A stretch of DNA of 64,000 nucleotides, taken from an uncultured bacterium (GTDB lineage Bacteria; Cyanobacteriota; Vampirovibrionia; Gastranaerophilales; Gastranaerophilaceae). Numbering within the stretch: position 1 is the first letter of the stretch; the number at the start of each line of letters is the position of its first letter. The position numbers and the translations under genes were made by a program. The notes under the pieces are model-generated. The model was not told the DNA's origin. It was given only the letters and a program-made list of their open reading frames with translations, and did not search any database. The DNA is taken from assembly GCA_902777855.1 (NCBI GenBank), contig CACYVN010000002.1, positions 62,001 to 126,000 on the forward strand. The letters are read 5' to 3'. This document shows positions 26,637 through 52,862 of the stretch, in pieces.

Positions 26637-26724
26637 TGAACTTGACTCTATTTGGCTTATAAAAATGATAACATTTGTGTCTAAATGCTTGACTTTACTG
26701 ACATTGCAAGTGATAGATGTGAGT

Positions 26725-27141
26725 ATGAACGATATAATTAATGAGTTGAAATTATTATCAAAAGCAGAAATTGAGCAAAAATATTACGACACTTTCGGAT
26801 ATTTACCACCGAATGGATATACGAAATCCTATCAAATCAAAGAAATTGCCTGGCAAGAAAAGTACAGTGAATTACCTGCGGATATACAAAGCAGGATAAA
26901 TAAACTTGTAAATGAATATGAAAATATAAAATCAGTAAATATTAAAAAGATTAGAAAATTTGAAACTACTGTTGGTACAAAATTTATACGTGAATTTAAA
27001 GGTGAAAAGCACGAAGTTATAGCTATTGAAAACGGGTTCAAATATAAAAACGGAACATATAAAACCCTTTCGGCTATTGCAAACGTCATAACCGGTACAC
27101 ACTGGAACGGTAAAAAATTTTTTGGAGTAGCTAATGGATAA
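26725..27141 (+). CDS. DUF2924 protein (recombinase partner)
   Basis: 138 residues from the ATG at 26725; an earlier start at 26665 would add 20 hydrophobic residues not usual for the family. The C-terminal half 'LIREFKGEKHEVIAIENGFKYKNGTYKTLSAIANVITGTHWNGKKFFG' is the DUF2924 signature (R.W.G..H.V....GF...G..Y.SLS.IA..ITG..WNG..FF). Such genes usually sit immediately before a serine recombinase, as here: the recombinase ATG overlaps its end by 8 nt. Probably an accessory for recombination; function unproved. Confidence 0.85.
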   Translation: MNDIINELKLLSKAEIEQKYYDTFGYLPPNGYTKSYQIKEIAWQEKYSELPADIQSRINKLVNEYENIKSVNIKKIRKFETTVGTKFIREFKGEKHEVIAIENGFKYKNGTYKTLSAIANVITGTHWNGKKFFGVANG

Positions 27142-28741
27142 AAAGAACATCAGATGCGCTATTTACACAAGAAAATCCTCAGAAGAAGGATTGGAACAGG
27201 ATTTCAACTCGCTAAATGCACAAAGAGAAGCTTGTGAGGCTTATATAAAATCTCAAATGCATGAGGGTTGGATACTTGTTGAGAAAGAATATGATGACGG
27301 TGGATATTCCGGAGGCACAATGAATCGTCCGGCATTTCAGGAACTTTTATTGGATATTGAAGAAAATAAGATAGATATTGTCGTTGTATATAAAGTTGAT
27401 CGTTTAACCCGTTCCCTTATGGATTTTTCAAAAATTGTTGAAATTTTAGATAAACACAAAACCTCGTTTATATCAATAACTCAGCAATTTAACACAACAA
27501 CTTCAATGGGCCGCTTAACGCTAAATATGTTATTATCTTTTGCTCAATTTGAGCGGGAAGTTACTGGGGAGAGAATTCGGGATAAGATTGCAGCATCAAA
27601 GAAAAAGGGTATGTGGATGGGCGGTTGCACTCCGCTTGGTTACAAGAAAGAAAATAAAAAACTTGTTGTAGAAGAAAATGACGCAGAGAAGGTAAAATTG
27701 ATTTTTGAAAAATATTTGGAATTACAGAGCGTTCCGAAATTAATGGAGTGGTTAAGGAATGAAAATATTAGGACAAGAACAGATAAAGAATTTTATAAAG
27801 GCGAATTATATCATATGCTTTCAAACAAGGTTTATATCGGGAAAATTGTGCATAAAGATAATGTTTATGAGGGTGAACACGAAGGCTTTATTGATGAAAT
27901 TACCTTTGAAAGGGTACAAAAACTTTTGTACGAAAATAAAGTTGATAAAATTTGCGGGACTAAATATTCTTCAAACTCTTTACTAACCGGTTTAATATTT
28001 GATGATAACGGAAACCGAATGACACCGTCACATAGTTGCAGCCATAAAAGAAGATACCGATATTATGTAAGCCAGGCAATAAAAAAATATAATAAATCTC
28101 AAGCAGGTTCGGTGTCAAAAATTCCTGCCGGTGAAATCGAGAAATTTGTCATTCTGACGACAAAAGAGCTATTGCAAAATAAAAAGCAGATGCAACACAT
28201 TCTTTCGGAGTTTGATGTTAATACGCAAATTAAGTTGATAAAAATCGCCAAAGATATTGAGGATTACGCCGAACCAAAACTTATACAATCTATTGTCAGC
28301 CGGGTTGTAGTTTCGGAAAAGATAATTGATATAACTTATGATGCAAAGAATATCAGAGAAATATTATTAATCTTAAGCAGCGGAGACAAGCTCAATTTAA
28401 TTCCGAAGAATAAAGAAATAGAGCCAATTACTGTGACAAAACAAATACGGATTTCACAGCCATCAAAAAGCGGTAATATATTGATTCTTAAGACAAAAGA
28501 GAATGATGTCCCGGAACCAAATCCGTATTTAGTTAATGCCATTGTCAAGAGCTATTACTACCACAAGCAAATTCAAAACGGCAAAACTATTGAGGATTTA
28601 CAAAACGAAGAAAACCTTAAAGACTCAAAATATATCCGAAATATCTTGAACCTCAAGTACATTTCACCAACCATAACAGAACAAATTTTAGATGGCACAC
28701 AACCAGATAATATGAGCTTACAAAAACTCATAAATTCATAA
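27134..28741 (+). CDS. Large serine recombinase
   Basis: 535 residues. The N-terminal resolvase domain (about 5-150) has the catalytic Ser15 in IYTRKSSEEG, followed by LNAQREACEAYI, EYDDGGYSGGTMNRPAFQELL, VYKVDRLTRS and FAQFEREVTGERIRDKIAASKKKGMWMG. The recombinase domain (about 165-260) and a zinc-ribbon-like region follow. The C-terminal tail ITEQILDGTQPDNMSLQKL is typical of this branch. Such enzymes integrate and excise phage-like elements at att sites without high-energy cofactors. It is the only intact recombinase in the window and is likely responsible for mobility of the cassette. Confidence 0.93.
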   Translation: MDKKNIRCAIYTRKSSEEGLEQDFNSLNAQREACEAYIKSQMHEGWILVEKEYDDGGYSGGTMNRPAFQELLLDIEENKIDIVVVYKVDRLTRSLMDFSKIVEILDKHKTSFISITQQFNTTTSMGRLTLNMLLSFAQFEREVTGERIRDKIAASKKKGMWMGGCTPLGYKKENKKLVVEENDAEKVKLIFEKYLELQSVPKLMEWLRNENIRTRTDKEFYKGELYHMLSNKVYIGKIVHKDNVYEGEHEGFIDEITFERVQKLLYENKVDKICGTKYSSNSLLTGLIFDDNGNRMTPSHSCSHKRRYRYYVSQAIKKYNKSQAGSVSKIPAGEIEKFVILTTKELLQNKKQMQHILSEFDVNTQIKLIKIAKDIEDYAEPKLIQSIVSRVVVSEKIIDITYDAKNIREILLILSSGDKLNLIPKNKEIEPITVTKQIRISQPSKSGNILILKTKENDVPEPNPYLVNAIVKSYYYHKQIQNGKTIEDLQNEENLKDSKYIRNILNLKYISPTITEQILDGTQPDNMSLQKLINS

Positions 28742-28901: not shown

Positions 28902-30821
28902 TTACTCTTTTTTTATATCTACATCTAAATAGTTTTTAACTGCAACAAATGGAGTTTTGGGTTTAGCATAATTTAGATTAAGGTCATCTGCAATTCTTTC
29001 CCAACCATCCGGACTAATGTTTGAAATCATATATAATCTATTTTTTGCACGTGTAGCTCCAACATATATTATGGACCTATTCATAGTACCATTAAATATA
29101 TTTGGAGTTATATCAATTAAAATAATTACTTTTGCTTCTAGTCCCTTATATTTTCTACATGTTGTGAAATCAAATTCTTTACCTTTATAACAATATTTAT
29201 ATTCATATTTTTTCTCATAATCATTATTATAATTTTCGTAATCTTCTTCTGTTACCTGTTTTAATTTATCAGATTTTGATAAGATACTACTTTCTATAGT
29301 TTTAACTGTTAAAATTTCTACTTGAGATTCTTCTATTTTATTGTCAATGCATTGTTGTAAAATCATTTCTAAATTTATTATTTGTTTCTGCTCATCTTCA
29401 GAATTATACATTATTGGTTTTTTACTTTTGATATTATTATTTAATACTTTGTTTTTATTACTTATTATTTTTGAGGATGTCTTAGCAATGTTTGCAGTGT
29501 TTCTACAATTTGTGTATAAGGTTAATTTGCAATCTGCATCTAATATATATTGAGGGATATTTTTGCATTGTACCATTTGATTTTTATCATAAAATAAATA
29601 GAATGTTCCAGGGTTTAAATCGTCTATCATTACCGTATCTTGTAATGCTTGAATAACATTACAAATACTGCTGTCGTATACTTTTTCATTGAATTTTGCT
29701 CCAAAATCCTGACCCTCATCAATAATGACATGTTTATATGGAAATTTATCATACATATTACTAATAGTATGTGCAAGCTCATCATAATCTATTTTTTTAC
29801 AGTATTTATAAGAGAGTTTATCAAGTGTATAAAAATCAACATTTTCCATATCACTATTGTTTTCATATAAATTTTTTAATTGTTTGCAAAGCCGCCTGTT
29901 GTAGCACAAAAATAGAACATTTTCTCCATTCCTTGAGTGCCTTAGAGCTTTTTCACAGGCAATATGGGTTTTACCTGTTCCTGCAGCCCCATTTATTATG
30001 GCTGAATGTTGTTCTTCAAGATAATTTAAGATTAGCTTTTGCTCATGTAACAAGTAATCTAATCTCATATCTTCAGATTTAATATTTGTCGATTCAGAAC
30101 CTGCAAGTATTAACATAGGGTTAAATATTTTATCTATTATTTTTTCAAAATCATCCTCGGAAAGTTTTGTTGGATTTTTATATACCAATTTAAAATATTC
30201 AGAATCGGTCATTTTTGCATAATTTGGATTTTCATCTTTCTTTTTATGATAAATTTCTTCTTCAAACTCATCAGGAAGTGAAAATATTTTATCAATATCT
30301 TTTGCTAATATTTCAGTATCTTCAATATCATCGAAAGTAAGAGTGCGATATAGATTCATATCCAAACCAGATGCTTGTTTTATAAAATCTGTTTTTGTTA
30401 AATCAGCAAACCAAACTGCATGTTGGAATTTGCAATATTTTTTTAATCCATTGATTTGTTCTTTATCAAAAGTGTTAAATATATCAAACTTAATATTTGA
30501 TGCTTGTTGATATGGCGTTATTGTATGTTCTGTACGGTCTTTGCCATTTATTTGAATACAAGTTCCGTTTTCAAACCTGATTTCACCAGCTTTCCCCTCA
30601 ATAACTAAAATACCTTTATCTTTATGAAATATTATAAAATCCGCTTGATGTTGATGAAAAGCTTGAAAAACATCATCAGATTGTCTTTTCCCAAAATAAT
30701 CAAAGTTTACTGAATGTAAAACAAAGTAATTATCATCCAAAGATTCCAATGCTTGAAACATTAAATTTTCTTTACTCGATTTTTCGTATGGTCGCATATA
30801 TTTTGGAAACATTTGAGCCAT
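28902..30821 (-). CDS. NERD nuclease-domain protein fused to UvrD-like helicase
   Basis: 639 residues. The N-terminal NERD domain (about 15-145) has Asp61, Glu75 and Lys77 (ADFIIF...VIEGKAGEI), the nuclease core pattern. Walker A GAAGTGKT at 278-285, Walker B-type HVIIDEGQDFG, and the C-terminal VGATRAKNRLYM (motif VI-like) show an SF1 UvrD/Rep-type ATPase. NERD helicases occur in several phage-defence loci. It is the last gene of the leftward operon, 2 nt after the large helicase gene, so it is likely produced together with it. Possible role: processing DNA recognised by the other proteins. Confidence 0.87.
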   Translation of the reverse strand: MAQMFPKYMRPYEKSSKENLMFQALESLDDNYFVLHSVNFDYFGKRQSDDVFQAFHQHQADFIIFHKDKGILVIEGKAGEIRFENGTCIQINGKDRTEHTITPYQQASNIKFDIFNTFDKEQINGLKKYCKFQHAVWFADLTKTDFIKQASGLDMNLYRTLTFDDIEDTEILAKDIDKIFSLPDEFEEEIYHKKKDENPNYAKMTDSEYFKLVYKNPTKLSEDDFEKIIDKIFNPMLILAGSESTNIKSEDMRLDYLLHEQKLILNYLEEQHSAIINGAAGTGKTHIACEKALRHSRNGENVLFLCYNRRLCKQLKNLYENNSDMENVDFYTLDKLSYKYCKKIDYDELAHTISNMYDKFPYKHVIIDEGQDFGAKFNEKVYDSSICNVIQALQDTVMIDDLNPGTFYLFYDKNQMVQCKNIPQYILDADCKLTLYTNCRNTANIAKTSSKIISNKNKVLNNNIKSKKPIMYNSEDEQKQIINLEMILQQCIDNKIEESQVEILTVKTIESSILSKSDKLKQVTEEDYENYNNDYEKKYEYKYCYKGKEFDFTTCRKYKGLEAKVIILIDITPNIFNGTMNRSIIYVGATRAKNRLYMISNISPDGWERIADDLNLNYAKPKTPFVAVKNYLDVDIKKE

Positions 30822-30823
30822 GG

Positions 30824-33800
30824 TTATCTCCTATTAAAACAAATTTCGAATTCATTAATGTTAAATTGTTCGTTCAAAATAAAACATTTCCAGTTAGAAT
30901 CTTTAGCCTTTTCATATTCTACTTGATTATCAGTGAAAAATAAGAGTATTTTATTATTATTCCATATTAAATCTGCATGAACTATGCTGCCATTTTGTTT
31001 ATTAGTTAAATTAGCATCTTCTGCAAGGGTTTCGTATTCATCAATATAATCAAGTCCTTTTATTTTCAAAAGATTAATAGTATTGATATCATTTTCCTCA
31101 AAATCATATAAATTTATAATATTAGAAATAACATCACTATTATTTTCTCTTTCATGAGTAGTACTATCCTGTTCGTTATAAGATAATATTATTTTTGCAT
31201 TCCTATCAGAAGTTCCATTGAGTTGTTTTACTACTTCTTCCGGTCTAAATAATAAATCAAAAATATTTATATCTTTATCTTCATCAGATTTATACAGAGG
31301 ATGAATTATATTAAAGTCATTTTCTTTTTTTACTATTTGACAAAGTTCATTGAGATTTTTATCAGCCTTTTCTTTTAAGTTTACCCAATAATTTTCTTTT
31401 AGCGATGGTACAAAGGTCTTATCATACATCATTCTTGCCATATCAAGTCCTAATCTCCAATTTAGGAGTCCATGATAATGCAAATTATCATAGCTTTGCA
31501 TACACTCATAACAAGAATTATCACATTTCTCAATATGGTTATGGTTTGTCAAACTTATATAAAAATCTCCATTTTTATCAGCAATAGATTTTAGAACATC
31601 AATAAAGTTTTTTTCATTACATAACCATTTGCTATAACCAGCCCCATTATCAAGAGTATCAGATAAAAATATTTGATTTGTTACTATCTCTCCATTATTA
31701 ACAGGTCGTAATCCAACAGAAATTTCTCGTTTATTTATATCTAGTATATTTGAAGCAGCATCCCTCAATAGAAATGCGAGTGAATAATATGCTATTTTAG
31801 AATATATATTTTCACCATATTTATTAACAACAGATAAATCTATTATATTTGGTATATTAGATATTTCAGCTAAAAATATATCAGTTTTTTTAGATGAAAT
31901 AAACGCAATTTCAGTAGATTCATATTCATTATTTATTCGAGGTTCATATTTTAAGTATTGATTTGCTTCTTTTGATTTTTTATTATATTTTTCAACCGCT
32001 TCGTCAACAACCCAGAATTTTTCATCTATACAATGATTCATAACTTTCTTTTTAGGATTGTCCATTATTTTAGTTACTTTGTAATTGTTTCCCTTATTAT
32101 CATTAATTGCTACTACTTGCATAAATTGTGTTTCTGGAAGATATTTGTAATTATTTCTTTCACTCGTTCTTAATATAATATCATCTGAATGATTAATTTG
32201 AGGTTTTTCTGAATATGGGGCATAATCGAAATTTCCATCATAATATATTGGTTTACAGCTATAATCTGCAGCTTGCGGAGTAAAGAAATTTTCTGGTTGT
32301 ATCGTTTTTGTTTTTATATCATTTTCATAATTACAAACTTCACATATATGAGTTTCTTTGTTATTCTGTTGATTAATTTCAGTTAAATTTTTACAATTTG
32401 GGCAGACCCAAAAATCACGTGTTTTACCTTCATCATCAGCATTTTGAGGTATTTTCCCACTAACTACTCCAACAGACATGTGTATTTTTTTATCTCTTAC
32501 AGTTTCACCTTTTGGAATAAATTGGCTCAATGCGATATCTAAATCTCTATTGATAGAATCCTTTATACTTTGATCACAATCAAATTCTATAATTAAATCT
32601 CTTGTTCTTGTTGGAAAACCAAACATAGGCAATATACCTGCATTGGCAAGTAATTCACTTAAACTTTCATCAAATTCAATTCCATACTCAATAACAGCTT
32701 TATCAATAGTTCCTACTAAGTCATTTTGTATATAATTAATCAGTTTTCCTTTATTATTAAATTTTGATTCTTTTAATAAAACATCTGCAATTTGTTCTAT
32801 TTTATCTTTGTTTTTCTTTATCCATTCTTGAACATAAATTTTATCATCTGCCCATTCTTCTGGAGTTCCAAAATCGCCATGAACATATCTCGTTGCATAA
32901 GAGTCCTTCAATTCCCTATAAATTAACCTTAAAACTTCTTTATTCAGAAAACGTTGGATAATACTTTCTCTTTCTGTATCTAAATAGGGTGGCTTTGGAG
33001 GATCATTTGTTATTTTGTTAGGATAATTAAAATAGTAATTATCATGATTTCTATTCCTACAGATAGTTAAAGCAGTTGCTAATGGTTTTCCTCTACGACC
33101 TGCACGTCCAACTCTTTGTTGATAATTGAATCTTTCAGGTGGCATATTTGCCATCAAAACAGAATCAAGTGAACCGATATCAACACCTGCTTCCATTGTT
33201 GTTGTAACACTTAATATTTCTATAGAATCTTTAATATCGCACTCATTTCCACTAAGAGTATTTTCTTCATTATTTGTTGTATATTTGTCTGTCTTATATT
33301 TATATACATTTTGAAATATCCTTTGTCTGTTTCTTTGTTCCTCTTTATTAGTTTGTGCTGTTAATTCTTCGCATGTAAGTTTTTTAGGAATATTATTTAT
33401 CAAATTAAGATAAAAGTTATGTTTCTTGTCGAATTTATCATTAGTTAAAACTTCTAATTTTTTCCCTTTACAATTTTTATTGATACATTTTTCATTAGAT
33501 GGATTAACATATATCATTTGACACTTTGGACAATAATACATGTTATCCATATCATCTTTCAATTCAATATATAAATCTTCAGTCTTTAAAAAATTATTAT
33601 CATCAATTAAATCCAAATCTTTCATAAGGTTATAAAGATAAAATTTATCCTCTTCTGGGAAAATGAATTTACTATAGTCGTTTAAAAAGCTTCCTTCTTT
33701 TTTTGTTTTTGTTCTATTTGATACATCAAATCTATTTTGCTGTCCCATTATGCGGATAGCTGAATTTATTGCCTGTTTTTTCTTATTATCTAGCTTATAT

Positions 33801-36589
33801 TTATCTTGATTATATGTAATTATTCCTATTCCGAGCGCTTCAATTCCACGACTTTTATAGAATAAAGTTTTTAATAGTTCTAATTTATTCTGGTCTTCAA
33901 CTATTCCTTTAAATTGGCTAATATCTGTATTTGATTTGCTATCTCCTTTAAATTTGTTATTGCTCCATTTATAGCAATCAAACCAATTTTTATCTTCTTT
34001 TTCCCCATACTTATTAAACTTATAGCTTCCTGGATTTATTCCTAGTTCTAACATTTTTTTATAAACATTATCTTGCAACTCATTGAATGGGCAAGGTTTG
34101 GTTATATTAAAAGTTTGGCTCTTAATTGTTTTTATTTTATTCTTAATTTCTTCCTTGTCTTCATAAGTTAAATCTTCATCATCACGGTAATAAGCGTCAA
34201 TATTGCTTCTATCGCTATTTGATTTTTTTAATTTTTTGCGATCTTCATCTTCTTTTTCATTTATACATTTATCTTTATATTTTTTCTCACACAATTCAAT
34301 AAAATATTTATCATCATTATCTTTTTGTGATTCATTTTCCTTTCGTTCTTGAAGTGATTGATACATAATTTGTCTTAATGTGTCACGAAAGTGATCCATC
34401 TCTATTCCTGCGGATAATTTTGCTGCATCTTGCCTACTATCAGTAAAAATAACTAGTTTACTTTTTTTCTTATTTTCTTCTTCTATTCCTCTACTTTGAA
34501 TATACAATAATTTATCAGCTAAAATTTGGTTAATTTTTTGGAAACCATATATGATAGGTTTTATAACTGTATATTTTATTTCTTCATTTGGTTTTGGTTC
34601 CCATTTAGTATCGCAGTATGGACACTCAATTGGAGTTGAGATTGTATTGTCACCTTCTATAATATAATATGCTGAGTTAAATTCACCTCTTTTCCCAGCA
34701 GAACAAATTGTTCCTTTAAAACAATTATATTTTGCTTTTTTCCATTTCCAAATTTTATTAGTAACAGCCCCCTTTGGTTTATAATCTAAATCATTTATAT
34801 AATTATTTGCTTCTACAGCATCTTCTTCTGGATTTGGAATTAATACAAGATAATTTTTAGTTATTCTTTCCGTATCCAAGGCATTTGGCATTTTTTCATA
34901 ATCATAGTATTGAGGGAATAAATAAATATCTTCTTTTGAACTTTCTAGTTTTTTCACTGCTTTTTCATCATGATATCCCCCAAGTAGTACATCTCCACAC
35001 TGTTGACATATTAATAATTCTAGTATTCTCCCACCACATTTGCACATTGCCTGAGGTTCTGAATATAATTTCCCAACTTTTCTTTTTTTTCTTTCTTCTT
35101 CATCTATACCATGAATTTCTGTACAATTTGGGTTTGAACAAGCCCATATACCCTTAAAATTTTTAAAGAAATAATGTGCTCTTAATCTAAAGTTATTGTT
35201 ATTTGTTTTAATCTCATAGAAATGTTTTTTTTCTAAATCTGATAATGATTTTGCAATGTATTTTTCCCCATCATAGAACATCTCCCTTAATTTTTTGAGA
35301 TTTTCATCCCCTTTTGTTTCTTGAGGAGTTATTATATCACCTGTAATTATTTCAAATTTACTTGTATCATTGCATCCAAAAAATTGTTGTAAAAAATTCA
35401 AACTTTCTTCTTTTGTACCTAATGATGCTGATGTTGCAATAATTTGAAGTTGAGGACTGTCAGGATTTAAATCAAGTCTATCTAATAATGTTCTAATTAA
35501 ATATGCTATTTCAGTACCTTGTGTCCCTCTGTATGAGTGTAGTTCATCTAATACAAGTTGAAATTTATTATTTTTATCTTTCTTTAACCATTCTTTTGTA
35601 GCATCAAAAATATTATCCTCAACTTTCCTCATCATCATAACATTTAACATAGAATAATTAGTGACAAAAATATCAGGTGGATATTTTTGCATATCCCATC
35701 TTGAATACATTTCTGAACCATCCAAGTTTTGAATAAGAAATCTCGCTTCTTCTGCGGGTTTACCATCTTCATTTCTAAATTCAGAATCTTGTATAGCTTC
35801 TAAAGCTTTTATTTCTTTATACAAATTTTTTCGTTTTTCTTTTTCTTCATTTGTAATTTTGGTATCAATATTATCACCTGGTCTTTCACCAGGAATTGGG
35901 GTCGAACTATTATAACGACCGAAATATATTAAATTACCATGAGTTTTTTCCTTAATAATTCTTTTTGCTTCATCGCTGTCAAGAGTTTTTCTTAAACGCA
36001 CCAATTGATCTTCAACCAATGCGTTTAGGGGGTACATTATTAATGTTCTTATAGCATGGGCTCGTTTTTCACCATGACGTTGGTATGGATAAGTCATTTC
36101 CATATTTGATATACTCTTATAAGGTTTTTGGGGGATTTCTCCTCTATTTTCCCATTTTTTTGCCTCATTAAGTATATTTGCTAAAACAGGAAGTAAAAAT
36201 GATTCAGTTTTACCTGAACCTGTTCCAGACGTAACAACAACGTGTTTTCCTTGTTTTGCATAGAATAGGGCATCTTTTTGATGAGTGTATAAAGATATTT
36301 TATTATTATCTTTTGGAAAAAGCCCCGTTTTTTCTATTGAAATCAAATCATATAAATCTTGTTCTTCCAAATCATTTGAAATATCTTTTTCTACTGTATT
36401 ACCTGTTGACTTATATTGATTAATAAGTTCTACGTATGGATCTTGAAATAATGTATCTCTGACAATTTTCTCACAATCTCTGTTTAAGGATTCTGATTTG
36501 AATTTATCTCTTGTCAGAACATAATCGATATATGTATTTTCTAATTCTTCATAATTTTCTCTAATTTTATCTTGTACACATTCTGTCAC
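30824..36589 (-). CDS. Very large DEAD/DEAH helicase with DUF1998-like C-terminus (DruE-like)
   Basis: 1921 residues. Q-motif-like YTHQ (101-104), Walker A SGTGSGKTES (121-130), DELH box (348-351) and motif III ATSASL (about 385-390) define the first RecA domain. The second has VTTTMEAGVDIGSL and the QRVGRAGRRG motif VI. Many CxxC pairs (CMKCGG-like, CPYCDTKW, CPNCKN, CEVCNYE) suggest zinc ribbons. The C-terminal CDNSCYECMQSYDNLHYHGLLNW is the DUF1998 signature shared by MrfA, DrmB and DruE. Size and architecture best match DruE of Druantia. It overlaps the 36589..37530 gene by one base and is the core of the operon. Confidence 0.87.
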   Translation of the reverse strand: MTECVQDKIRENYEELENTYIDYVLTRDKFKSESLNRDCEKIVRDTLFQDPYVELINQYKSTGNTVEKDISNDLEEQDLYDLISIEKTGLFPKDNNKISLYTHQKDALFYAKQGKHVVVTSGTGSGKTESFLLPVLANILNEAKKWENRGEIPQKPYKSISNMEMTYPYQRHGEKRAHAIRTLIMYPLNALVEDQLVRLRKTLDSDEAKRIIKEKTHGNLIYFGRYNSSTPIPGERPGDNIDTKITNEEKEKRKNLYKEIKALEAIQDSEFRNEDGKPAEEARFLIQNLDGSEMYSRWDMQKYPPDIFVTNYSMLNVMMMRKVEDNIFDATKEWLKKDKNNKFQLVLDELHSYRGTQGTEIAYLIRTLLDRLDLNPDSPQLQIIATSASLGTKEESLNFLQQFFGCNDTSKFEIITGDIITPQETKGDENLKKLREMFYDGEKYIAKSLSDLEKKHFYEIKTNNNNFRLRAHYFFKNFKGIWACSNPNCTEIHGIDEEERKKRKVGKLYSEPQAMCKCGGRILELLICQQCGDVLLGGYHDEKAVKKLESSKEDIYLFPQYYDYEKMPNALDTERITKNYLVLIPNPEEDAVEANNYINDLDYKPKGAVTNKIWKWKKAKYNCFKGTICSAGKRGEFNSAYYIIEGDNTISTPIECPYCDTKWEPKPNEEIKYTVIKPIIYGFQKINQILADKLLYIQSRGIEEENKKKSKLVIFTDSRQDAAKLSAGIEMDHFRDTLRQIMYQSLQERKENESQKDNDDKYFIELCEKKYKDKCINEKEDEDRKKLKKSNSDRSNIDAYYRDDEDLTYEDKEEIKNKIKTIKSQTFNITKPCPFNELQDNVYKKMLELGINPGSYKFNKYGEKEDKNWFDCYKWSNNKFKGDSKSNTDISQFKGIVEDQNKLELLKTLFYKSRGIEALGIGIITYNQDKYKLDNKKKQAINSAIRIMGQQNRFDVSNRTKTKKEGSFLNDYSKFIFPEEDKFYLYNLMKDLDLIDDNNFLKTEDLYIELKDDMDNMYYCPKCQMIYVNPSNEKCINKNCKGKKLEVLTNDKFDKKHNFYLNLINNIPKKLTCEELTAQTNKEEQRNRQRIFQNVYKYKTDKYTTNNEENTLSGNECDIKDSIEILSVTTTMEAGVDIGSLDSVLMANMPPERFNYQQRVGRAGRRGKPLATALTICRNRNHDNYYFNYPNKITNDPPKPPYLDTERESIIQRFLNKEVLRLIYRELKDSYATRYVHGDFGTPEEWADDKIYVQEWIKKNKDKIEQIADVLLKESKFNNKGKLINYIQNDLVGTIDKAVIEYGIEFDESLSELLANAGILPMFGFPTRTRDLIIEFDCDQSIKDSINRDLDIALSQFIPKGETVRDKKIHMSVGVVSGKIPQNADDEGKTRDFWVCPNCKNLTEINQQNNKETHICEVCNYENDIKTKTIQPENFFTPQAADYSCKPIYYDGNFDYAPYSEKPQINHSDDIILRTSERNNYKYLPETQFMQVVAINDNKGNNYKVTKIMDNPKKKVMNHCIDEKFWVVDEAVEKYNKKSKEANQYLKYEPRINNEYESTEIAFISSKKTDIFLAEISNIPNIIDLSVVNKYGENIYSKIAYYSLAFLLRDAASNILDINKREISVGLRPVNNGEIVTNQIFLSDTLDNGAGYSKWLCNEKNFIDVLKSIADKNGDFYISLTNHNHIEKCDNSCYECMQSYDNLHYHGLLNWRLGLDMARMMYDKTFVPSLKENYWVNLKEKADKNLNELCQIVKKENDFNIIHPLYKSDEDKDINIFDLLFRPEEVVKQLNGTSDRNAKIILSYNEQDSTTHERENNSDVISNIINLYDFEENDINTINLLKIKGLDYIDEYETLAEDANLTNKQNGSIVHADLIWNNNKILLFFTDNQVEYEKAKDSNWKCFILNEQFNINEFEICFNRR

Positions 36590-37530
36590 TACACTTCTCC
36601 TAAAATTTGACCTAAAACATTAGCAACATACCTTGCTGTGTTTAAGTCAATATTAGCATATACACGCTGATTTTCAATAACTTGGGGATTAAAACCGCTA
36701 AACATAGTCAAAGCCCTATCAATTAATTCAGGAAGCTGTATACCAAGTCTTATATAGAGAGATTTATCTTTATATCGCATTATTTTGTTGTTTTCTCTCT
36801 CTTTATTATGAACTATAAATATTCCATAATTTCTGTCAATTTCGAACCATTTTTGATTATCATAAAGATAGTACGTATTATAACCATAATTTTTTTCTTC
36901 ATATAGACCAAAAGTTAAATTATGTGCATTACTATTTTCAAAATTAAACTTAATAGGATTATATTTTTTTATGAATTTATCAGTTTGTCTAATTGGTGTT
37001 TTTACTTCTTTTAAATTTTTTTGTATAACAGTTATATTTGGAACAATTTTTAATACATTATCACTAAAGTTCTCTGATATCCTTAATTGAGGGAATCTTT
37101 CTTTTACATAATTCAAATCATCAAATTTTATTTTAATACATTTAGGAGCATTACTATTATCTATTTCTTTATATTTTTCAGAATATGTCTTTAATAATAT
37201 TTTAAGTCCTTTTGTTCGACTACCCACAATAAATCCTTCTTGTGTATTCGGAATAACAACTAATGTAGGCGGACAAACTGCAAATTTACTATTTATATAA
37301 TCAAACTCAATATGTCCTAATCTTGAGAACATGCTAAATATTTGATTATATATACTAAAATGGCCGCCTTTTTCGGTTAATTCATTTTTGTAGTCATTCA
37401 AATTGTCTTCATAATCAATATTATTTATATATTGTTTAAATTGAGCAATTGTTCCTGATTTTATATAACTCAGATATTCAAACAAAATATCATAATCAAT
37501 ACAACTTAATATATTATTATTTCTACTCAT
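36589..37530 (-). CDS. Defence-operon protein, 313 aa (DruD-position)
   Basis: Soluble mixed alpha/beta protein. 'MFSRLGHIEFDY...AVCPPTLVVIPN' and 'GFIVGSRTKGLKILL' read like a folded N-terminal domain, and 'YGIFIVHNKERENNKIM...LYIRLGIQLPELIDRALTMFSG' a C-terminal one. No catalytic motif recognised. It stands directly before the DruE-like helicase, where Druantia type I places DruD of similar size, as I remember it. Start overlaps the upstream gene by 8 nt. Could be a specificity or adaptor component. Confidence 0.7.
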   Translation of the reverse strand: MSRNNNILSCIDYDILFEYLSYIKSGTIAQFKQYINNIDYEDNLNDYKNELTEKGGHFSIYNQIFSMFSRLGHIEFDYINSKFAVCPPTLVVIPNTQEGFIVGSRTKGLKILLKTYSEKYKEIDNSNAPKCIKIKFDDLNYVKERFPQLRISENFSDNVLKIVPNITVIQKNLKEVKTPIRQTDKFIKKYNPIKFNFENSNAHNLTFGLYEEKNYGYNTYYLYDNQKWFEIDRNYGIFIVHNKERENNKIMRYKDKSLYIRLGIQLPELIDRALTMFSGFNPQVIENQRVYANIDLNTARYVANVLGQILGEV

Positions 37531-39451
37531 TTATACCCTCAAGATTTGAAGTGTATTTTAATTCATACTGTTTCATAAAATCAGGAGTTTCAAAAGAATT
37601 ATTTTTATCTGATTTTTTTATAAATACAAATTTTAAATTATCAAGCTTTTTAATATTCCTGTAAACATCATCTTCTTTGTTTACTTTTATATTGGGATTT
37701 ATTAGAGATATTCCATCTTGTTTTTCTTCTATATTTTTAATAAACGTCTCTAAGTATATAGATGGCATAACCCTGTTATAATCCCTAAAAACTACAATTC
37801 CCATAGGAATATTTGGATTATTTTTTAACTCCTTATAATAATCAGATATTCCTGTAGCCGAAGGTATAAAACTTCCATCATCTTTAAAGTACCCAAACCA
37901 ATCTTTATATGAGAGCCAATCAAAATCTGGACGTACATAATGTATTTTATAATCAAATTCATCTTGTGCATTTTTCCATGCTCGTAATTCTTTTCCGTTG
38001 TTTAATACTACAAAGAAATTATTCATTTTATCATACAAATCTAATATGTAATCTTCTGAACCATCTATTTCTTGAGATAAATTGGATATGAACTTATCTG
38101 GGTCGGTATCTGAAAGTAAAGCTATTCTCGAACTGCTATGCATATATTCTTGAGATTTTATTGTTACATCATATTCATTAGACAAGACCGTTCGATTTGT
38201 ATTAATCTTTAATTCTTTATCAATATTACGCTGATCTCTTCTGTTTGCAACTTCTAAAACTACTTCTTCTTTTAATTCTGGGATTTTTTTTATGATAAAT
38301 TCACATAATGCTTTATCCGATATAACCATTTTTTTTAAATCTTGTTTAAATTGTGATTCATATCGTATTAAATTTTTTAAATTATCAGTAGTAATACATT
38401 TCCAGTTTCTTAATTTATCATTTTCTCGTTTTATATCCTCATAATCTGAAAATTTGTCTAGCTCCTTCTGTTTCTCTTGAAGTTTATCTTCATAATTTTT
38501 TTGCATCTTCTCAAAATCACCTGAAGGAGTTTTTTTATTTCTTAATTCATAATTTTCATTTTTTAGATTTTCTTTATCTTTTTTTATTTGATCATAATCA
38601 GCATATTTTTCCTGAAGATTTTTTATTTCTTTATAAAAATCTTCTTTTTGCTCAGCCAATTTTTTCTCATTGTCATCTTTTAATATCGCAATTTGTTTCG
38701 CTAATTCATCTTTGTGTTCTTTTTTTAATTCATCAATCTGCGCCACATGTTTTTTTGAGTTTTCTATTAATTCTTTCTCGATATCCTTTTTTGCTTGTTT
38801 TATTTCGTCATAATCTTTTTTATTTTTTAATTCAGATTCTAATTCTTTTACTCTACTATTTAATTTTTCTAAATTTTTATCTCTGTCATCTTTTTCGTTC
38901 ACCTTATTCAGTAATGCTAACCTATAAGGAGCAGTTTTAATCTCTTTTTCTATTTTTTTACTTGTTGAAATAGGTGAAAATCTATATAATGTCGATAATG
39001 TTTCTCTTGAAACTTTATTTTTCTCTTTAAGTAAAATTTTAATAAGTTGATTATAATCGGGTTTACCATCTAATTTTGGGATTGTCCCTATTTTATTTAT
39101 TTCTGCATTTGAAACACTCCATGCTAATATAACTCTACTAAATACATCTAATGCGATTTCTTGCGGCGTTACTTTCTGGGTGTGCTTACTATTCATAAAA
39201 AACCCTTTTATTTCCCCTTTTAAGGCTTTACAATAATTTTCTTTTGTTTCTTTCCCAAATTTTATAAGATTATTCTTTTCATTTTTGTATTTTGAAACTA
39301 CAAATTTTAAAAGGACATAATTATTTAAAAACGTGCGCGCATCACTAACAGATATTTCATCCAGCAATTGCATTAATTCTTCAACAGGACTTGAAACTAT
39401 TAAATCTATTTTTTCTTTCGGATAACCATAATTTTTTTCTTCGTCCATCAT
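37523..39451 (-). CDS. Coiled-coil defence-operon protein, 642 aa (DruC-position)
   Basis: An N-terminal helical domain (about 1-185), a long coiled coil (about 190-350; repeated Lys/Glu heptads such as KELESELKNKKDYDEI), then a C-terminal globular domain (about 360-642) with 'SSSRIALLSDTDPDKFISNL' and 'PNIPMGIVVFRDYNRVMPSIYLETF'. No nuclease or ATPase motif seen. The size and place (second of three genes before the DruE-like helicase) match DruC in Druantia, from memory. The coiled coil suggests a dimeric scaffold or sensor. Start ATG pairs MM; 1 nt after the 604-residue gene's stop. Confidence 0.7.
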   Translation of the reverse strand: MMDEEKNYGYPKEKIDLIVSSPVEELMQLLDEISVSDARTFLNNYVLLKFVVSKYKNEKNNLIKFGKETKENYCKALKGEIKGFFMNSKHTQKVTPQEIALDVFSRVILAWSVSNAEINKIGTIPKLDGKPDYNQLIKILLKEKNKVSRETLSTLYRFSPISTSKKIEKEIKTAPYRLALLNKVNEKDDRDKNLEKLNSRVKELESELKNKKDYDEIKQAKKDIEKELIENSKKHVAQIDELKKEHKDELAKQIAILKDDNEKKLAEQKEDFYKEIKNLQEKYADYDQIKKDKENLKNENYELRNKKTPSGDFEKMQKNYEDKLQEKQKELDKFSDYEDIKRENDKLRNWKCITTDNLKNLIRYESQFKQDLKKMVISDKALCEFIIKKIPELKEEVVLEVANRRDQRNIDKELKINTNRTVLSNEYDVTIKSQEYMHSSSRIALLSDTDPDKFISNLSQEIDGSEDYILDLYDKMNNFFVVLNNGKELRAWKNAQDEFDYKIHYVRPDFDWLSYKDWFGYFKDDGSFIPSATGISDYYKELKNNPNIPMGIVVFRDYNRVMPSIYLETFIKNIEEKQDGISLINPNIKVNKEDDVYRNIKKLDNLKFVFIKKSDKNNSFETPDFMKQYELKYTSNLEGINE

Positions 39452-39452
39452 A

Positions 39453-41267
39453 TTATGCCTCCAGTTCTTTCATATATCTTTGTTTTAACCCATATAATTG
39501 AGGTTTGTACAACTTGGAATTATTCAATCTCATATCAAATGCTTTTATTATATTGTTAATATAAGTCTTTTTATCTTCATTAATGGAACCGGGCTTATTT
39601 GATAAAAACAAATTCTCTATATAGCATCCATTAATGAAATTAGGGTTTTCACCATTTCCGTTTGTTTTAACAAATATGCCATCTTGAAAATAATTGTATA
39701 TGAATTCTTGATCACGTTCTTCAAATTCATATTTTATTTCATAATTTTTATTAGGAACATGCTTAACTTTTATACAGTGAGGCCCAATTTGCTTATCATT
39801 TAATCTTATCGGGATTTTATAAGGTTGAAAGCTGCCATTATCTATACTATAATCCGTTGAAGAATTCTTATTGTTAATTATGAATACTTTTCCATTAGTA
39901 TTTTTTCGCTTTATGTCGTTTTTATTAGATTTATTTATATTTAATATTGGCCCGGCATTTTGTAAGTATTCATCTTTTTGTCCATTTTTAAGACCTTTTA
40001 ATAATTTTATTGTATCGCCACTCTTTATATTAAAATCAGAGTCTGGGCATTTACAAGTTGCACCTAAAATATATAGGCTTGACAAATTATTTTCTCCTAA
40101 AGATTTTTCTTTGATATCTTTATCAAAAATTTTATTTAAATTTTTTCGGTATTTATTAAAAAACAATCTACCTGCAATTATTACAACATTGTCGCTCACA
40201 TTTGCAGAAAAATTTTCTATATAATCACCTTGTTCTTCAGCGACCAATAATATATATTCTTTTGTGTAATCATTTTGTAAATATTTTATTTCTTCATTTT
40301 CTATATAGAATTTATTACACATAGAAACTTCTTCGGGTTCTATATATTTATAAAAAACATCTCGGTCTTTTTTATATTCTTCGAATTCTTCAGGAACATT
40401 TTTCTTTTGTTTAAACTCAAGAAGAAATTCCCCACTATCACTATAATAACGTAGTTTAGGGCTAATTACTAGTTTTTTGCCATTAATAGTATCTATATAA
40501 TCATCGCCATTTTCTAAAAAATAATTATATAAATCTTTTATTATATCTTTTATTTTTTCTTTTAGTTCTTCTTGCGCAATTGCTTTTTGGAAACCTTTAC
40601 TATATCCACTTTGATTTATTATTTTTTTGTAGTCATAATCACTCAATCCATTATTATTTTTATTTATTTTTTCAAATTGTTTGTTTAATAACCTACGATC
40701 TTTATCTGAAATAATCGCCTGTGAGATTATTCTCCCAACAATATCGTTATTGCCTCTTTTATATAGTTTTTGAAATTTAATCTTGTATCCTTGAGATTCT
40801 ACAGACTGTTCAAAATTATCAAATAATTCTGAACAATAGTCATATTCATTAGCATATAAAATATTTCTATCAACTTGTTCTTCAGATATATTCTTATATT
40901 TTGCTATTATTTTTTTTATCTTGCTTCCCCAATAAGCATTAGATGAAAAGTTACCTTCATTGACCATAATTGTTGCAGCATATACAAAAAATGCTATCAG
41001 TGCGGTTTGTTTAGGGATATTATCCTTTATTTTTTCAATATTTTCTATTTTAAAACCGTATATACCTTTATTACGTGGTCTTTCTTCACAAATCTCATTT
41101 AGCACACACTTACAAAAGGATTCAAGAGGTTTTTCTTCTCCTAATTTTTCCCCTATATTGTTAATGAGTTTTTCGTCCACGTAAAATAAACAACGAATTC
41201 CTTCTGGATTTTCGTTAAAGAAGTAATTATATATTTCATTATTCCAGTCTTGATAATTTGCCATCAT
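39453..41267 (-). CDS. First protein of defence operon, 604 aa (DruB-position)
   Basis: Reads MMANYQDWNNEIYNYFF then a helical N-terminal domain (about 60-270) and a beta-rich C-terminal domain from about 300, with 'YLLVAEEQGDYIENF'-like and 'VFIINNKNSS' strands and a C-terminal helix. A CKCPDSDF pair of Cys lies near residue 405. No catalytic motif recognised. It stands first in the operon, where Druantia places DruB, and has a good promoter in front. Either of two adjacent ATGs (41267 or 41264) could be used; the ribosome site is weak. Confidence 0.7.
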   Translation of the reverse strand: MMANYQDWNNEIYNYFFNENPEGIRCLFYVDEKLINNIGEKLGEEKPLESFCKCVLNEICEERPRNKGIYGFKIENIEKIKDNIPKQTALIAFFVYAATIMVNEGNFSSNAYWGSKIKKIIAKYKNISEEQVDRNILYANEYDYCSELFDNFEQSVESQGYKIKFQKLYKRGNNDIVGRIISQAIISDKDRRLLNKQFEKINKNNNGLSDYDYKKIINQSGYSKGFQKAIAQEELKEKIKDIIKDLYNYFLENGDDYIDTINGKKLVISPKLRYYSDSGEFLLEFKQKKNVPEEFEEYKKDRDVFYKYIEPEEVSMCNKFYIENEEIKYLQNDYTKEYILLVAEEQGDYIENFSANVSDNVVIIAGRLFFNKYRKNLNKIFDKDIKEKSLGENNLSSLYILGATCKCPDSDFNIKSGDTIKLLKGLKNGQKDEYLQNAGPILNINKSNKNDIKRKNTNGKVFIINNKNSSTDYSIDNGSFQPYKIPIRLNDKQIGPHCIKVKHVPNKNYEIKYEFEERDQEFIYNYFQDGIFVKTNGNGENPNFINGCYIENLFLSNKPGSINEDKKTYINNIIKAFDMRLNNSKLYKPQLYGLKQRYMKELEA

Positions 41268-41284
41268 TTACACCCAACACAATG

Positions 41285-41313
41285 ATTATATCTATTTTTT
41301 AGTGATTTTGCAA
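41285..41313 (-). promoter_or_regulatory. Promoter of the five-gene defence operon
   Basis: On the minus strand TTGCAA (41308-41313) and TATAAT (41285-41290) are 17 nt apart, just before the ATG at 41267. It faces left toward all five genes. Confidence 0.7.
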
Positions 41314-41916: not shown

Positions 41917-42594
41917 TTATAAATTTTCTATTTCAACTAGTTTGGGGTTAGCACAGAACTTTTTGACTAAACTTGTGCACCTTGGACTCGGATGTGAAGG
42001 CTGTTTTGCACCAGACTTATTTATTCTGTATGCTTGAACAAGATGTCTTTTTGATTTTATTGAATAAATCAAGTCTTTTAAATGACTGTAATATTCATTA
42101 TTTAATTTTGTTTTAACACCATTACCCCAGGCAATTATTATCTTGGATACATTGCTTGGATATTTATCAGTAAGTCTAAAAATCGGATTGTTGGCATATT
42201 CATACTCACAATCGATCATTCTTACAGCATCTTCTACTTGAGGATGACGGATAGTAAAAGAATTATAAATTAACATTCCGCCACATTTAACTTTTTCATC
42301 AGAATAATTTTGAAGTGCATAGCAAATTCTAACACAATTTTTTAGGGTTTCATCTAACACATTCGCATTTGCGATACTCGGGTTAAATAAAACAAATATA
42401 TTGCGATTAGGGCAATTTTTATCCCAAATAACTTCATAACTTAGCCTGTTTTTGGGACATCGGCTATTCCCTTTTTCGATAACAGATAATTTCTTATAAT
42501 AGGATGAAGCAAGATTTGTATATTCGTCTTTCCCATATATGGGATTCTTTTCAGCATTATTATTTACGAAATCAACAAATTCTTCAATATCCAT
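41917..42594 (-). CDS. DUF1643 protein
   Basis: 225 residues. Shows the DUF1643 pattern: 'IFVLFNPSIANANVLDETLKNCVRIC' (LNPS.ADa..D.T...), 'CGGMLIYNSFTIRHPQ' (GG...vN.f..R), 'IIIAWGNGVKT' (aWG) and 'AKQPSHPSPRC' (G.P.HP). The family's activity is unknown, but it is often found on mobile elements and near restriction genes. It starts 10 nt after the GmrSD-like gene, so the two are one operon. Confidence 0.85.
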   Translation of the reverse strand: MDIEEFVDFVNNNAEKNPIYGKDEYTNLASSYYKKLSVIEKGNSRCPKNRLSYEVIWDKNCPNRNIFVLFNPSIANANVLDETLKNCVRICYALQNYSDEKVKCGGMLIYNSFTIRHPQVEDAVRMIDCEYEYANNPIFRLTDKYPSNVSKIIIAWGNGVKTKLNNEYYSHLKDLIYSIKSKRHLVQAYRINKSGAKQPSHPSPRCTSLVKKFCANPKLVEIENL

Positions 42595-42603
42595 ATCATA
42601 TCC

Positions 42604-44415
42604 TTATATTGAATAATAGAAATTCTTAATTTTTTCAGCCATCATTTTTCTACGCTCGAGCAAAAATTCATCATAATCGTTTGCTTGCATAGAGAATATC
42701 TTTTCCGGGATACAATTCATTTTTAAATTATTTCTTAAATCTTCTTCATTTAATATTGTTCCAACAGTACATTGGTTATTGTGGCATTGTTCAAGTGCTT
42801 TCGTGAAATATTCGTTTGGAGCTTGTTTCCCAACGGAAATATTAACGGTTGTATCTAAATAAGTATAATTAGCAACTTGGTTATATTTTGATTTATCATC
42901 ATATCCGTTTTGTTTTAAAAATTCTTTTGGGAAAATATGATGAACGTGACCAGTTACAGTTACTAAATCAGAAACTTTTGTTGTACTTGAAAATAATGAT
43001 TGTTCTGCATTCAAAACTTGCGCAGCTATAAATGTATTAAAGTATGGACTGTTTATTGATGATGTTTCCAAGTTTTGAACTAATCCAACATTCCAGAAAG
43101 TATCTGATAATTCTGCTTCTTCAACTTCTGCAAAGAATCTTCTGAATCCTTTTTCTTCTATATTTCTTAAGTCTCTGTCCATTTGAGATTCTGGGGAACC
43201 AATATATCTGCTAGTTAATGTAGATAATACAAACCATTTTTGAACAAATCTTTTTATCTCAATTTTATCAATATCTTTTGAATTATTTAAAATCAAATAT
43301 AAAGTATAAGCAAAATCCAATGTCATTTTTGAATTTAACAATTTTTCATTAATAAAACCGCAAGCTTTTATTAATAATACAAAATTCTTAAAATTATATT
43401 CGTTCATAAAATTTTTAACACCAGATGTTAATTGATTAAAACTATTTTCTGCAATTTCTTCTTTAAAAGTCCTGGTTTCAAAATCTCTGCCTGATAATAA
43501 ATTAACTAAATCTTTTAACTTACCTCTACCAAATTTATGCATCAAACAAACTCTCAACATATCATTATAATCGGGATCGTATATTGCTTCTTTATCATCT
43601 TTTAGCCATTTTAACATCGGAGCAAATTCTGATTGCATAAATTCATCATCTGTCGAAGATAATTTTTCATAAAAAATAGGATCTACTGCAAGATGGCAGA
43701 AATAGTCAATTGCTTTTCTTAAAATATTTCCACCATATTTAGAATCTGCTGCAATTTTTGACATCGCAAAGTCAGATTCATTCAAGCGTTTGCCTTGTGA
43801 ATTTATTCTAACAAAGATTTCTGTTACTTCATTAATATCTAAATCAGGAACTAAAATAATTGTCCCCATTTGACATGTTCGTATGTCTAAAAGTTTTTGG
43901 ATTGCTTTATTAATAACATCAGAAGATACTTCCGGGTTATTAGCCATATATTCATTAATAAAATTAAAAGCATTAAAATCTGGTTTAAAAACAACAGCAA
44001 TATCTGCAATCCAATTTTTACTTTTTACATGAACGGGGGTCTGGACAGCAAATCTTTCTTCATTACCTTCTGCCAATGGATTAAATGCGATTTTGTATGC
44101 TTTTGTTTCATAATCCTCAGTTAATATCTTCTGTCCCGCTAATGCCGTCATTAATGCGGTCACGCGCTGTTGTCCATCTATTAAAATTTTAGTACCACCG
44201 GCTTCTTTACCGTCTTTTAATCTTACAGTTGGATTCTGCCAAATTATTAAATATCCTGTTGGATACCCACTATACAAAGAATCAATTAAATCCCTTACTT
44301 TGCTTGGGTTCCATACAAACGGTCTTTGTATTTCTGGTATGGATATTTCACCACTATTAATGAAACCTAAAATATTATCTACTGAATATTGTGCAACTGA
44401 ATATTTATTAGTCAT
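42604..44415 (-). CDS. GmrSD-like type IV restriction protein (DUF262 + DUF1524/HNH)
   Basis: 603 residues. The N-terminal DUF262 ParB/Srx-like NTPase domain has IPEIQRPFVWNPSKVRDLIDSLY and IDGQQRVTALMT (DGQQR at 80-84), the motif that hydrolyses nucleotide. The C-terminal DUF1524 HNH nuclease has VHHIFPKEFL around 490 and NYTYLDTTVNISVGKQAPNEYF. Single-chain GmrSD enzymes cut DNA carrying modified (for example glucosylated hydroxymethyl-) cytosines, and the fused form is common. Target modification here is unknown. It is followed by DUF1643. Confidence 0.92.
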   Translation of the reverse strand: MTNKYSVAQYSVDNILGFINSGEISIPEIQRPFVWNPSKVRDLIDSLYSGYPTGYLIIWQNPTVRLKDGKEAGGTKILIDGQQRVTALMTALAGQKILTEDYETKAYKIAFNPLAEGNEERFAVQTPVHVKSKNWIADIAVVFKPDFNAFNFINEYMANNPEVSSDVINKAIQKLLDIRTCQMGTIILVPDLDINEVTEIFVRINSQGKRLNESDFAMSKIAADSKYGGNILRKAIDYFCHLAVDPIFYEKLSSTDDEFMQSEFAPMLKWLKDDKEAIYDPDYNDMLRVCLMHKFGRGKLKDLVNLLSGRDFETRTFKEEIAENSFNQLTSGVKNFMNEYNFKNFVLLIKACGFINEKLLNSKMTLDFAYTLYLILNNSKDIDKIEIKRFVQKWFVLSTLTSRYIGSPESQMDRDLRNIEEKGFRRFFAEVEEAELSDTFWNVGLVQNLETSSINSPYFNTFIAAQVLNAEQSLFSSTTKVSDLVTVTGHVHHIFPKEFLKQNGYDDKSKYNQVANYTYLDTTVNISVGKQAPNEYFTKALEQCHNNQCTVGTILNEEDLRNNLKMNCIPEKIFSMQANDYDEFLLERRKMMAEKIKNFYYSI

Positions 44416-45493: not shown

Positions 45494-46762
45494 GTGGTCT
45501 TATTAGAATCAGAAATACCTAAAAAAAACATTTTAAGTGTAACAAAAATAAAGCCAATGGATGGGACATTCAAAAATAATTTTGATATTCCTATTCATCG
45601 TTGGTACCCTTATATAGAAGGGTTTTCTATAAATTTTGTTCGGTCAATTTTAAACAATTATCCCCAAAACATTATTGTATATGATCCATTTAATGGTTCT
45701 GGAACAACAACCTTAACTGCAAGTTCAATGGGAATTAAGAGTTATGCTTCCGAAGTAAATCCATTTATGCGTTTTATTGCAAATACAAAAGTAAATGTTG
45801 TTAAAAGCATATTAGAAAATAACGAAATATTTGTTTTAAACAAAACATTTAAGGATTTATGTGATAAATTATTAGACACAAATTATAGAAAAAAAGTATT
45901 CAAAGAATGTAAAACAGTAAATGATTGTTACATAGAAAAAGATTTTTTCGATAAGAAAGTTTTACAAGATATTTCTTATATTAAATATTTGATAAAAAGT
46001 ATAAATAATGATGATATTGGAAATATCGCTTTGTTAAGTTTAGCCTCAATCACAGTTGAGATCTCAAATATGATTAGAGCTGCTGACTTGCGAAAGAAAA
46101 CATTAAAAGAAAAAGAGTTAGCCTCTAACAGTACAATAGATTTATTTATACAAAAATTCTCAAATGTTATTTCTGATATTCAATCAGTGAGAAACATGAA
46201 TTTTGAAGTAACAGAGTTTATAAGTGATAATGCAAAATCTATTAGTAAAAATTATTATAATACCGTTGATTTAGTGATAACATCACCACCTTATGTAAAT
46301 GGCACTAATTACTTTAGAAATACAAAATTAGAATTATGGATTTTAGATTTTATTTCAAAAGAAACAGACTTGAAAGTATATAGAGAACAAGCCATTACGG
46401 CAGGAATAAACAATGTTTCAGTTAATAATAAAATAAATCCATTAGATATTGTTGAACCATATGCAAAACAATTAGATAAATTATCTACAGATAAGAGAAT
46501 ACCAAAAATGATACGAGCATATTTTAGCGATATGAATGTTGTTTTCAAAAATTTTAACTTACTTCTCAAAAATAATGGAAGAATATATTTTGATATAGGT
46601 GATTCCGAATATTATGGTATTCATATTCCAGTGGATGAATTAATTGTATCTATAGCCAATAGCAATGGTTTTAAATTAATAGAATGCAAGTTACTGAGAA
46701 AAAGGCATTCAAAAACCGGAAATACTTTGTCTCAAAAATTATTAATCTTTGATAAGGAGTAA
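45494..46762 (+). CDS. DNA methyltransferase 1 of a restriction-modification pair
   Basis: 422 residues with a GTG start at 45494, supported by AAGGAG 8 nt upstream. Motif I DPFNGSGTTTL at 64-74 binds SAM, and motif IV is TSPPYVNGTNYF near 264. The I-then-IV order with TSPPY is typical of N4-cytosine or N6-adenine gamma/alpha-like type II enzymes. The last residues 'HSKTGNTLSQKLLIF' are unremarkable. The second methyltransferase begins 2 nt after its stop, so both are coupled and probably protect the two strands of an asymmetric site. Confidence 0.88.
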   Translation: MVLLESEIPKKNILSVTKIKPMDGTFKNNFDIPIHRWYPYIEGFSINFVRSILNNYPQNIIVYDPFNGSGTTTLTASSMGIKSYASEVNPFMRFIANTKVNVVKSILENNEIFVLNKTFKDLCDKLLDTNYRKKVFKECKTVNDCYIEKDFFDKKVLQDISYIKYLIKSINNDDIGNIALLSLASITVEISNMIRAADLRKKTLKEKELASNSTIDLFIQKFSNVISDIQSVRNMNFEVTEFISDNAKSISKNYYNTVDLVITSPPYVNGTNYFRNTKLELWILDFISKETDLKVYREQAITAGINNVSVNNKINPLDIVEPYAKQLDKLSTDKRIPKMIRAYFSDMNVVFKNFNLLLKNNGRIYFDIGDSEYYGIHIPVDELIVSIANSNGFKLIECKLLRKRHSKTGNTLSQKLLIFDKE

Positions 46763-46763
46763 A

Positions 46764-52354: not shown

Positions 52355-52433
52355 GATTAAATCGCTATATTGTCCCGTGTTTGCAGGATTTTTAGTTAGA
52401 GAGTTTGGTCTTATCTCTCTATTTAAGACTAAA

Positions 52434-52833: not shown

Positions 52834-52862
52834 ATGGATATTGTAAATGTACGATTATTACC

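Follow-up and report, generated by a model that had tools for sequence, protein, structure and literature searches.

A predicted Druantia type IV operon with two additional genes in a defence island of a Gastranaerophilaceae genome

To which defence system does a compact operon built around a giant DUF1998 helicase belong, and what could the genes lined up with this helicase contribute? Gastranaerophilaceae are non-photosynthetic gut Cyanobacteria (Melainabacteria). In the genome of one uncultured member of this family (1.94 Mb, 31 contigs), we analysed a stretch of 64,000 nucleotides, hereafter the window (contig CACYVN010000002.1, positions 62,001 to 126,000). At positions 28902-41267, it carries an operon of five open reading frames on the minus strand, encoding, in gene order, proteins of 604, 642, 313, 1921 and 639 residues. 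An earlier note, made from the sequence alone, had described these five leftward genes with exact coordinates and lengths; it placed genes 1 to 3 in the positions of DruB, DruC and DruD, and proposed either a new subtype or a different system with a Druantia-like core. Our comparisons lead to another assignment. Judged by its sequence matches, the operon is a Druantia type IV system, known and published in 2021, plus two genes; a novel system built on a type I core does not fit them.

The genes are tightly packed, as the earlier note had stated. Read from the sequence, genes 1 and 2 are separated by a 1-nt gap, genes 2 and 3 overlap by 8 nt, genes 3 and 4 overlap by 1 nt, and genes 4 and 5 are separated by a 2-nt gap. 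The single promoter proposed in front of gene 1 fared less well: a TTGCAA-17-TATAAT site does precede the gene by about 18 bases, and the number of promoter-like matches in the region is near chance (114 seen versus 98.6 by chance, standard deviation 10.9).

Three of the five genes can be assigned by sequence to known Druantia families. Gene 1 matches the PADLOC models DruF4 (1e-19) and DruF2 (2e-17). The match to the best model runs from residue 4 to 300 of the protein and from position 2 to 300 of the 678 of the model, i.e., over the N-terminal part only, with partial coverage of the hidden Markov model (HMM); in a profile-profile comparison with the type IV DruF set from other loci, gene 1 reached 99.7% over 427 columns. 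Gene 3 matches DruL4 (3.8e-27) and, by the same comparison, the type IV DruL set (99.8% over 287 columns). Gene 4 scores 1405 bits with DruE4, 1366 with DruE2 and 686 with DruE1. Its SF2 core is intact (GTGSGKT at 122-128, DELH at 348-351, QRVGRAGR at 1158-1165), and the DUF1998 cysteines C1689, C1693 and C1696, which the earlier note had picked out as a signature of this giant helicase, are invariant across 12 homologues; the Pfam MZB/DUF1998 score is 17.9 bits, under its 24.2-bit cut-off. Among genes 1 to 5, PADLOC gave no match for DruA, DruB or DruD, and in the operon none for DruM or for the DruG model. A sequence search of the PDB with genes 1, 2 and 3 gave no match.

On these matches, gene 1 is a DruF homologue, gene 3 a DruL homologue and gene 4 a DruE of the II/IV group. 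Since DruF and DruL are both matched and the DruE scores are highest for types IV and II, we conclude that the operon represents the published type IV plus two genes. This type was defined in 2021 as DruE, DruF and DruL, and it was reported to be the most widespread of the new subtypes of Doron systems proposed by PADLOC, with 11 phyla (PMC8565338). The lack of DruA is thus expected from the definition of the type itself. Hence, the earlier note was right in seeing a Druantia-family operon without DruA and with an added NERD helicase, and the HMM searches confirm this kinship through DruF, DruL and DruE; the assignment of genes 1 and 3 to DruB and DruD, as well as the idea of a new subtype or a different system, gave way to type IV. 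In a quick DruE tree with several long branches, the DruE of the window groups with three Gastranaerophilaceae DruE (support 100) and lies apart from type II, whose nearest neighbours in the tree are type IV loci of a different set.

Does this set of genes hold together elsewhere? DruE-like matches at E <= 1e-50 were found in 6 of 382 genomes sampled from the class, and four of these six, the genome of the window included, belong to its family. In all four Gastranaerophilaceae loci (the window, L009, L010 and L011), the order DruF-gene 2-DruL-DruE is kept on one strand, and the four-gene core of the other loci is only 25-49% identical to that of the window. The preservation of the order at such an identity suggests selection on the set. 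Homologues of genes 1 to 4 thus travel together in all four loci. Gene 2 orthologues were found in 4 of 383 genomes of the family; a search of a collection of genome contigs returned only two known relatives, and none was found in the plasmids and viral contigs scanned. The type IV loci of other Cyanobacteria, of a Deinococcus plasmid and of viral contigs present DruF-DruL-DruE, or a fused DruF-DruL, without gene 2.

What, then, could gene 2 be? In the AlphaFold2 models, its sole confident part is a helical N-terminal domain (about residues 12-170), followed by a long helix or coiled coil (about 165-415). In the C-terminal part, we could recognise by eye a degenerate first strand, NFFVVLNN, devoid of Walker A. 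Next comes VRPDFDWLSYKDWFG, with GIVVFRDYNRVMPSIYL following after 25-30 residues. These last two motifs are co-linear with FHPSYSYEDF...VLVIEEINRG of McrB. Among 410 proteins, the paired pattern is confined to the gene 2 family, in all four of its members, and to three genuine McrB. The place of the gene agrees: type II loci have a coiled-coil DruG between DruF and DruE, where gene 2 stands, and by the order DruABCDE type I would have DruC there. Bell et al. (PMC12458937) report inactivated proteins of the CnuB/McrB kind for Druantia I and II, the coiled coil being extended in type II. We also aligned type II DruG with McrB and obtained a score of 35.2, above all 192 unrelated decoys (best 26.7). 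Gene 2 may hence encode a divergent pseudo-GTPase of the DruG/CnuB kind, an identity which is unproven and which we hold to be moderately probable.

Two other loci carry a coiled-coil gene that aligns with gene 2 weakly but in register, with 5 of 192 decoys scoring as high for L013 and 8 of 192 for L065. L013 (1334-11081) comes from a different family within the class. It encodes a DNA cytosine methyltransferase and a coiled-coil protein together with DruL and DruE, has no recognisable DruF, and may be intermediate between type II and type IV. L065 (5883-16116), on a viral contig, consists of a DruF-like gene, a coiled coil, a small third gene and DruE. For the first three of these genes, PADLOC gave nothing meaningful, and a protein encoded downstream has a weak match to the PBECR3 nuclease.

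Gene 5 is of another nature. It matches the PADLOC model RTasNERD-Hel (1.5e-46), and both its NERD active-site pattern (D61...E75-x-K77) and its helicase motifs (GAAGTGKT, DEGQ) are intact. It is present in 2 of 269 genomes of the family, those of the window and of L011 (37% identity), both times directly after DruE. L010 stops at a contig edge, so that gene 5 is observable in three loci and accompanies the core in two of them. In an alignment of 12 DruE, the same two loci are the only ones whose DruE extends past residue about 1796, the ten others being devoid of this extension, and the two tails are weakly alike (E 0.004). The co-occurrence of gene 5 with the extension is a correlation, not a proof, as it concerns two loci. 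In a separate setting, a Deinococcus aquaticus plasmid (L053, 5973-16750) carries DruF-DruL-DruE beside type III-A CRISPR genes; 640 bp downstream of DruE, it has a NERD-UvrD gene whose subfamily is not that of gene 5.

Putting these elements together, we propose, as a moderately likely reading, that the operon is related to Druantia type IV, expanded and with its genes split, and that it is directed most likely against phages or plasmids. An anti-phage function is probable, and the location in a low-GC island with Lamassu, GmrSD-like, DNA methyltransferase and site-specific recombinase genes speaks for it. DruF, the gene 2 product and DruL would form the recognition and scaffold part, sensing infection or loading DruE, and to this part gene 2 would contribute a pseudo-GTPase with a coiled coil, akin to DruG/CnuB. 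DruE would be the ATP-driven helicase; by extension of the work on type III, it could engage, open or hold phage replication intermediates bearing single-stranded DNA (ssDNA). In type III, DruE has been shown to load on 3' ssDNA and to act by unwinding and cutting, with PLD nuclease domains at its C-terminus (PMC13192584), and in types I and II the C-terminal nuclease of DruE is reported to be inactivated (Bell et al., PMC12458937). Because the DruE of our operon has no recognisable nuclease domain, gene 5 is the proposed cutter: its nuclease-helicase would be recruited to the same DNA and degrade it, which is the least certain step.

Several points weigh against this reading. We found no functional or experimental work on any Druantia type IV system in the literature. 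The statement that DruE is devoid of nuclease rests on the lack of a Pfam match to a nuclease domain in gene 4 and on analogy. Gene 5 is missing from L009, L010 ends at a contig edge, and gene 5 is therefore an accessory at most. One may even consider that genes 1 to 4 are the defence system and that gene 5 is an independent neighbour on a shared transcript. This appears rather unlikely to us: L009 does possess the four-gene core alone, and NERD-UvrD helicases are modules in several other systems (PADLOC RTasNERD-Hel, C3a187), but only 2 nt separate gene 5 from DruE, both copies found in the 269 family genomes directly follow DruE, and both loci also carry the C-terminal extension of DruE. As for gene 2, AlphaFold predicts the C-terminal domain poorly (predicted local distance difference test, pLDDT, in the 30s-40s), and Foldseek searches with the full-length model and with the C-terminal part gave no meaningful match. 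The McrB-like motif pattern was composed after the sequences had been seen. The profile comparison with McrB (score 16.8, reached by 37 of 193 decoys) is not significant, nor is the one with DruG, which lies within the decoy range; once this decoy control had been made, a single hhalign of gene 2 with McrB was not taken as proof. Gene 2 could therefore be a lineage-specific coiled-coil scaffold without kinship to McrB, CnuB or DruG, a serious possibility to which we give somewhat less than even weight. Indeed, it has no database family, its McrB and DruG profile scores fall in the decoy range, and coiled coils alone account for weak matches. On the contrary, its position in the operon is that of DruG, its motif pair and their spacing are as in McrB, the predicted strand-helix order of its C-terminal part fits, with low confidence, a P-loop core, and its singly weak profile matches land in the right register.

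The idea of a type I core (DruB, DruC, DruD, DruE) deprived of DruA and enriched with a NERD helicase is improbable. Sizes and order (604/642/313/1921) do resemble B-C-D-E, and gene 2 has a weak match to DruC (E 0.059). However, the DruC HMM picks up coiled coils in most genomes (215 of 292), which is evidently noise, and its match to gene 2 is therefore not evidence; it was discarded, and the positional analogy of gene 2 to DruC may still hold. At the sequence level, the PADLOC models assign genes 1 and 3 to DruF and DruL rather than to DruB or DruD, and gene 4 scores twice as high for types II and IV as for type I. The DruD1 profile found nothing in the genome of the window; it also found nothing in 262 cyanobacterial genomes, where the controls gave no match either, so that this second result does not speak for absence. 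Scans of plasmids, phages and viral contigs revealed no recognisable type I locus. A TALON- or ARMADA-type system, i.e., a YprA-like helicase with a NERD nuclease, is far less probable still. The published description of TALON does include a NERD endonuclease and a homologue of YprA (PMC12458937), but gene 4 matches the DruE models at up to 1405 bits, DruF and DruL are present, and the operon encodes neither TPR-CSD nor TATA-binding proteins, and neither a PglX methylase nor a BrxHII helicase.

If the operon is an expanded type IV relative, as we favour, what does it bring? The type IV family is already known; what is unusual here is the coiled-coil gene 2 inside it and the nuclease-helicase gene 5 added to it. 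As a natural locus with all candidate modules in separate genes, it makes their roles testable singly. Its pairing with an intact nuclease-helicase suggests what may cut when DruE itself lacks a recognisable nuclease. Should gene 2 prove to be a pseudo-GTPase of the DruG/CnuB type, the various Druantia systems would be rearrangements of one machine. Tentatively, we even consider that Druantia I, II and IV might descend from, or converge on, a single four-module machine, F-G-L-E, in which type II would have fused F and L, common type IV would have lost G, and the operon of the window would have kept four separate genes together with a NERD cutter.

The operon does not stand alone. It is located inside a low-GC (guanine-cytosine) defence island, one edge of which lies at the 3' end of a transfer-messenger RNA (tmRNA) gene; the GC content of the operon stretch is 25-29%, whereas beyond the island most of the window has about 30-39%. 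The features are listed in the table below. In relatives of the same genus, similarity searched from the tmRNA (window 52400-52834) commonly starts at query position 33-38, corresponding to window 52432-52437 and to the tmRNA 3' end, and stops short of the island side. This fits an element integrated at the tmRNA, one boundary of which is mapped. Within the island, the region 45494-49399, with its tandem methyltransferases and an oppositely oriented gene having a weak HNH match, is possibly a restriction-modification set. L011 also has a GmrSD_N gene beside DruF, divergent and only 24% identical to that of the window over the shared domain; with two loci, this too is a correlation.

Table. Positions of the operon genes and of the neighbouring features in the window
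Feature	Position	Strand	Basis
Gene 1, DruF homologue, 604 residues, first in operon	39453..41267	-	PADLOC; profile-profile; same-place homologues in L009, L010, L011
Gene 2, coiled-coil protein, 642 residues, proposed counterpart of type II DruG	37523..39451	-	Orthologues; AlphaFold2; motif pair
Gene 3, DruL homologue, 313 residues	36589..37530	-	PADLOC DruL4; profile-profile
Gene 4, DruE, YprA-like SF2 helicase with DUF1998 cysteines, 1921 residues, GTG start	30824..36589	-	PADLOC; motifs
DruE C-terminal extension, about residues 1796-1921, fold unproven	30824..31204	-	Alignment of 12 DruE
Gene 5, NERD nuclease-UvrD helicase, 639 residues, last in operon	28902..30821	-	PADLOC; motifs
Promoter-like site 5' of gene 1	41285..41313	-	Consensus match only, TTGCAA-17-TATAAT
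DUF2924 protein, then CcrB-like large serine recombinase (27134-28741), left of the defence genes	26665-28741		
DUF1643 protein and GmrSD_N-domain protein (GmrSD-type, 42604-44415), upstream of the operon	41917-44415	- (same as operon)	
Two tandem type II-like DNA methyltransferase genes	45494-47927		
Lamassu-like pair LmuA-LmuB adjoining the tmRNA	49585-52244		Cap4/LmuA nuclease 3e-54; LmuB SMC-like ATPase 9e-131
tmRNA	52434-52833	-	

How does the operon compare with the known systems? With TALON (PMC12458937), it shares a NERD nuclease adjoining a YprA-family helicase; it differs in that its NERD domain is fused to a UvrD helicase, its YprA-family helicase is DruE, and the genes for TPR-CSD and TATA-binding proteins are lacking. 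Druantia type III (DruH-DruE) has the same DruE helicase core, whereas our operon is devoid of DruH and no C-terminal PLD nucleases are recognised in gene 4. As in type I (DruABCDE), three uncharacterised genes precede the DUF1998 helicase, but DruA is absent, genes 1 and 3 correspond to DruF and DruL, and the DruE1 score is only half. Type II (DruM-DruF-DruG-DruE, the Type IV CoCoNuT of PMC12458937) comes closer, with a coiled-coil gene between DruF and DruE and a close DruE (1366 bits); on the other hand, the operon has no DruM, gene 2 has no significant match to DruG, and DruL is separate, while in the long DruF2 it appears fused. The strongest likeness is to type IV (PMC8565338), with DruF, DruL and DruE in the order F-L-E on one strand, in overlapping or abutting genes. 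Compared with this type, the DruF of the operon fits the best model over its N-terminal part only, and the operon adds gene 2 between DruF and DruL, gene 5 after DruE, and an extension to DruE itself.

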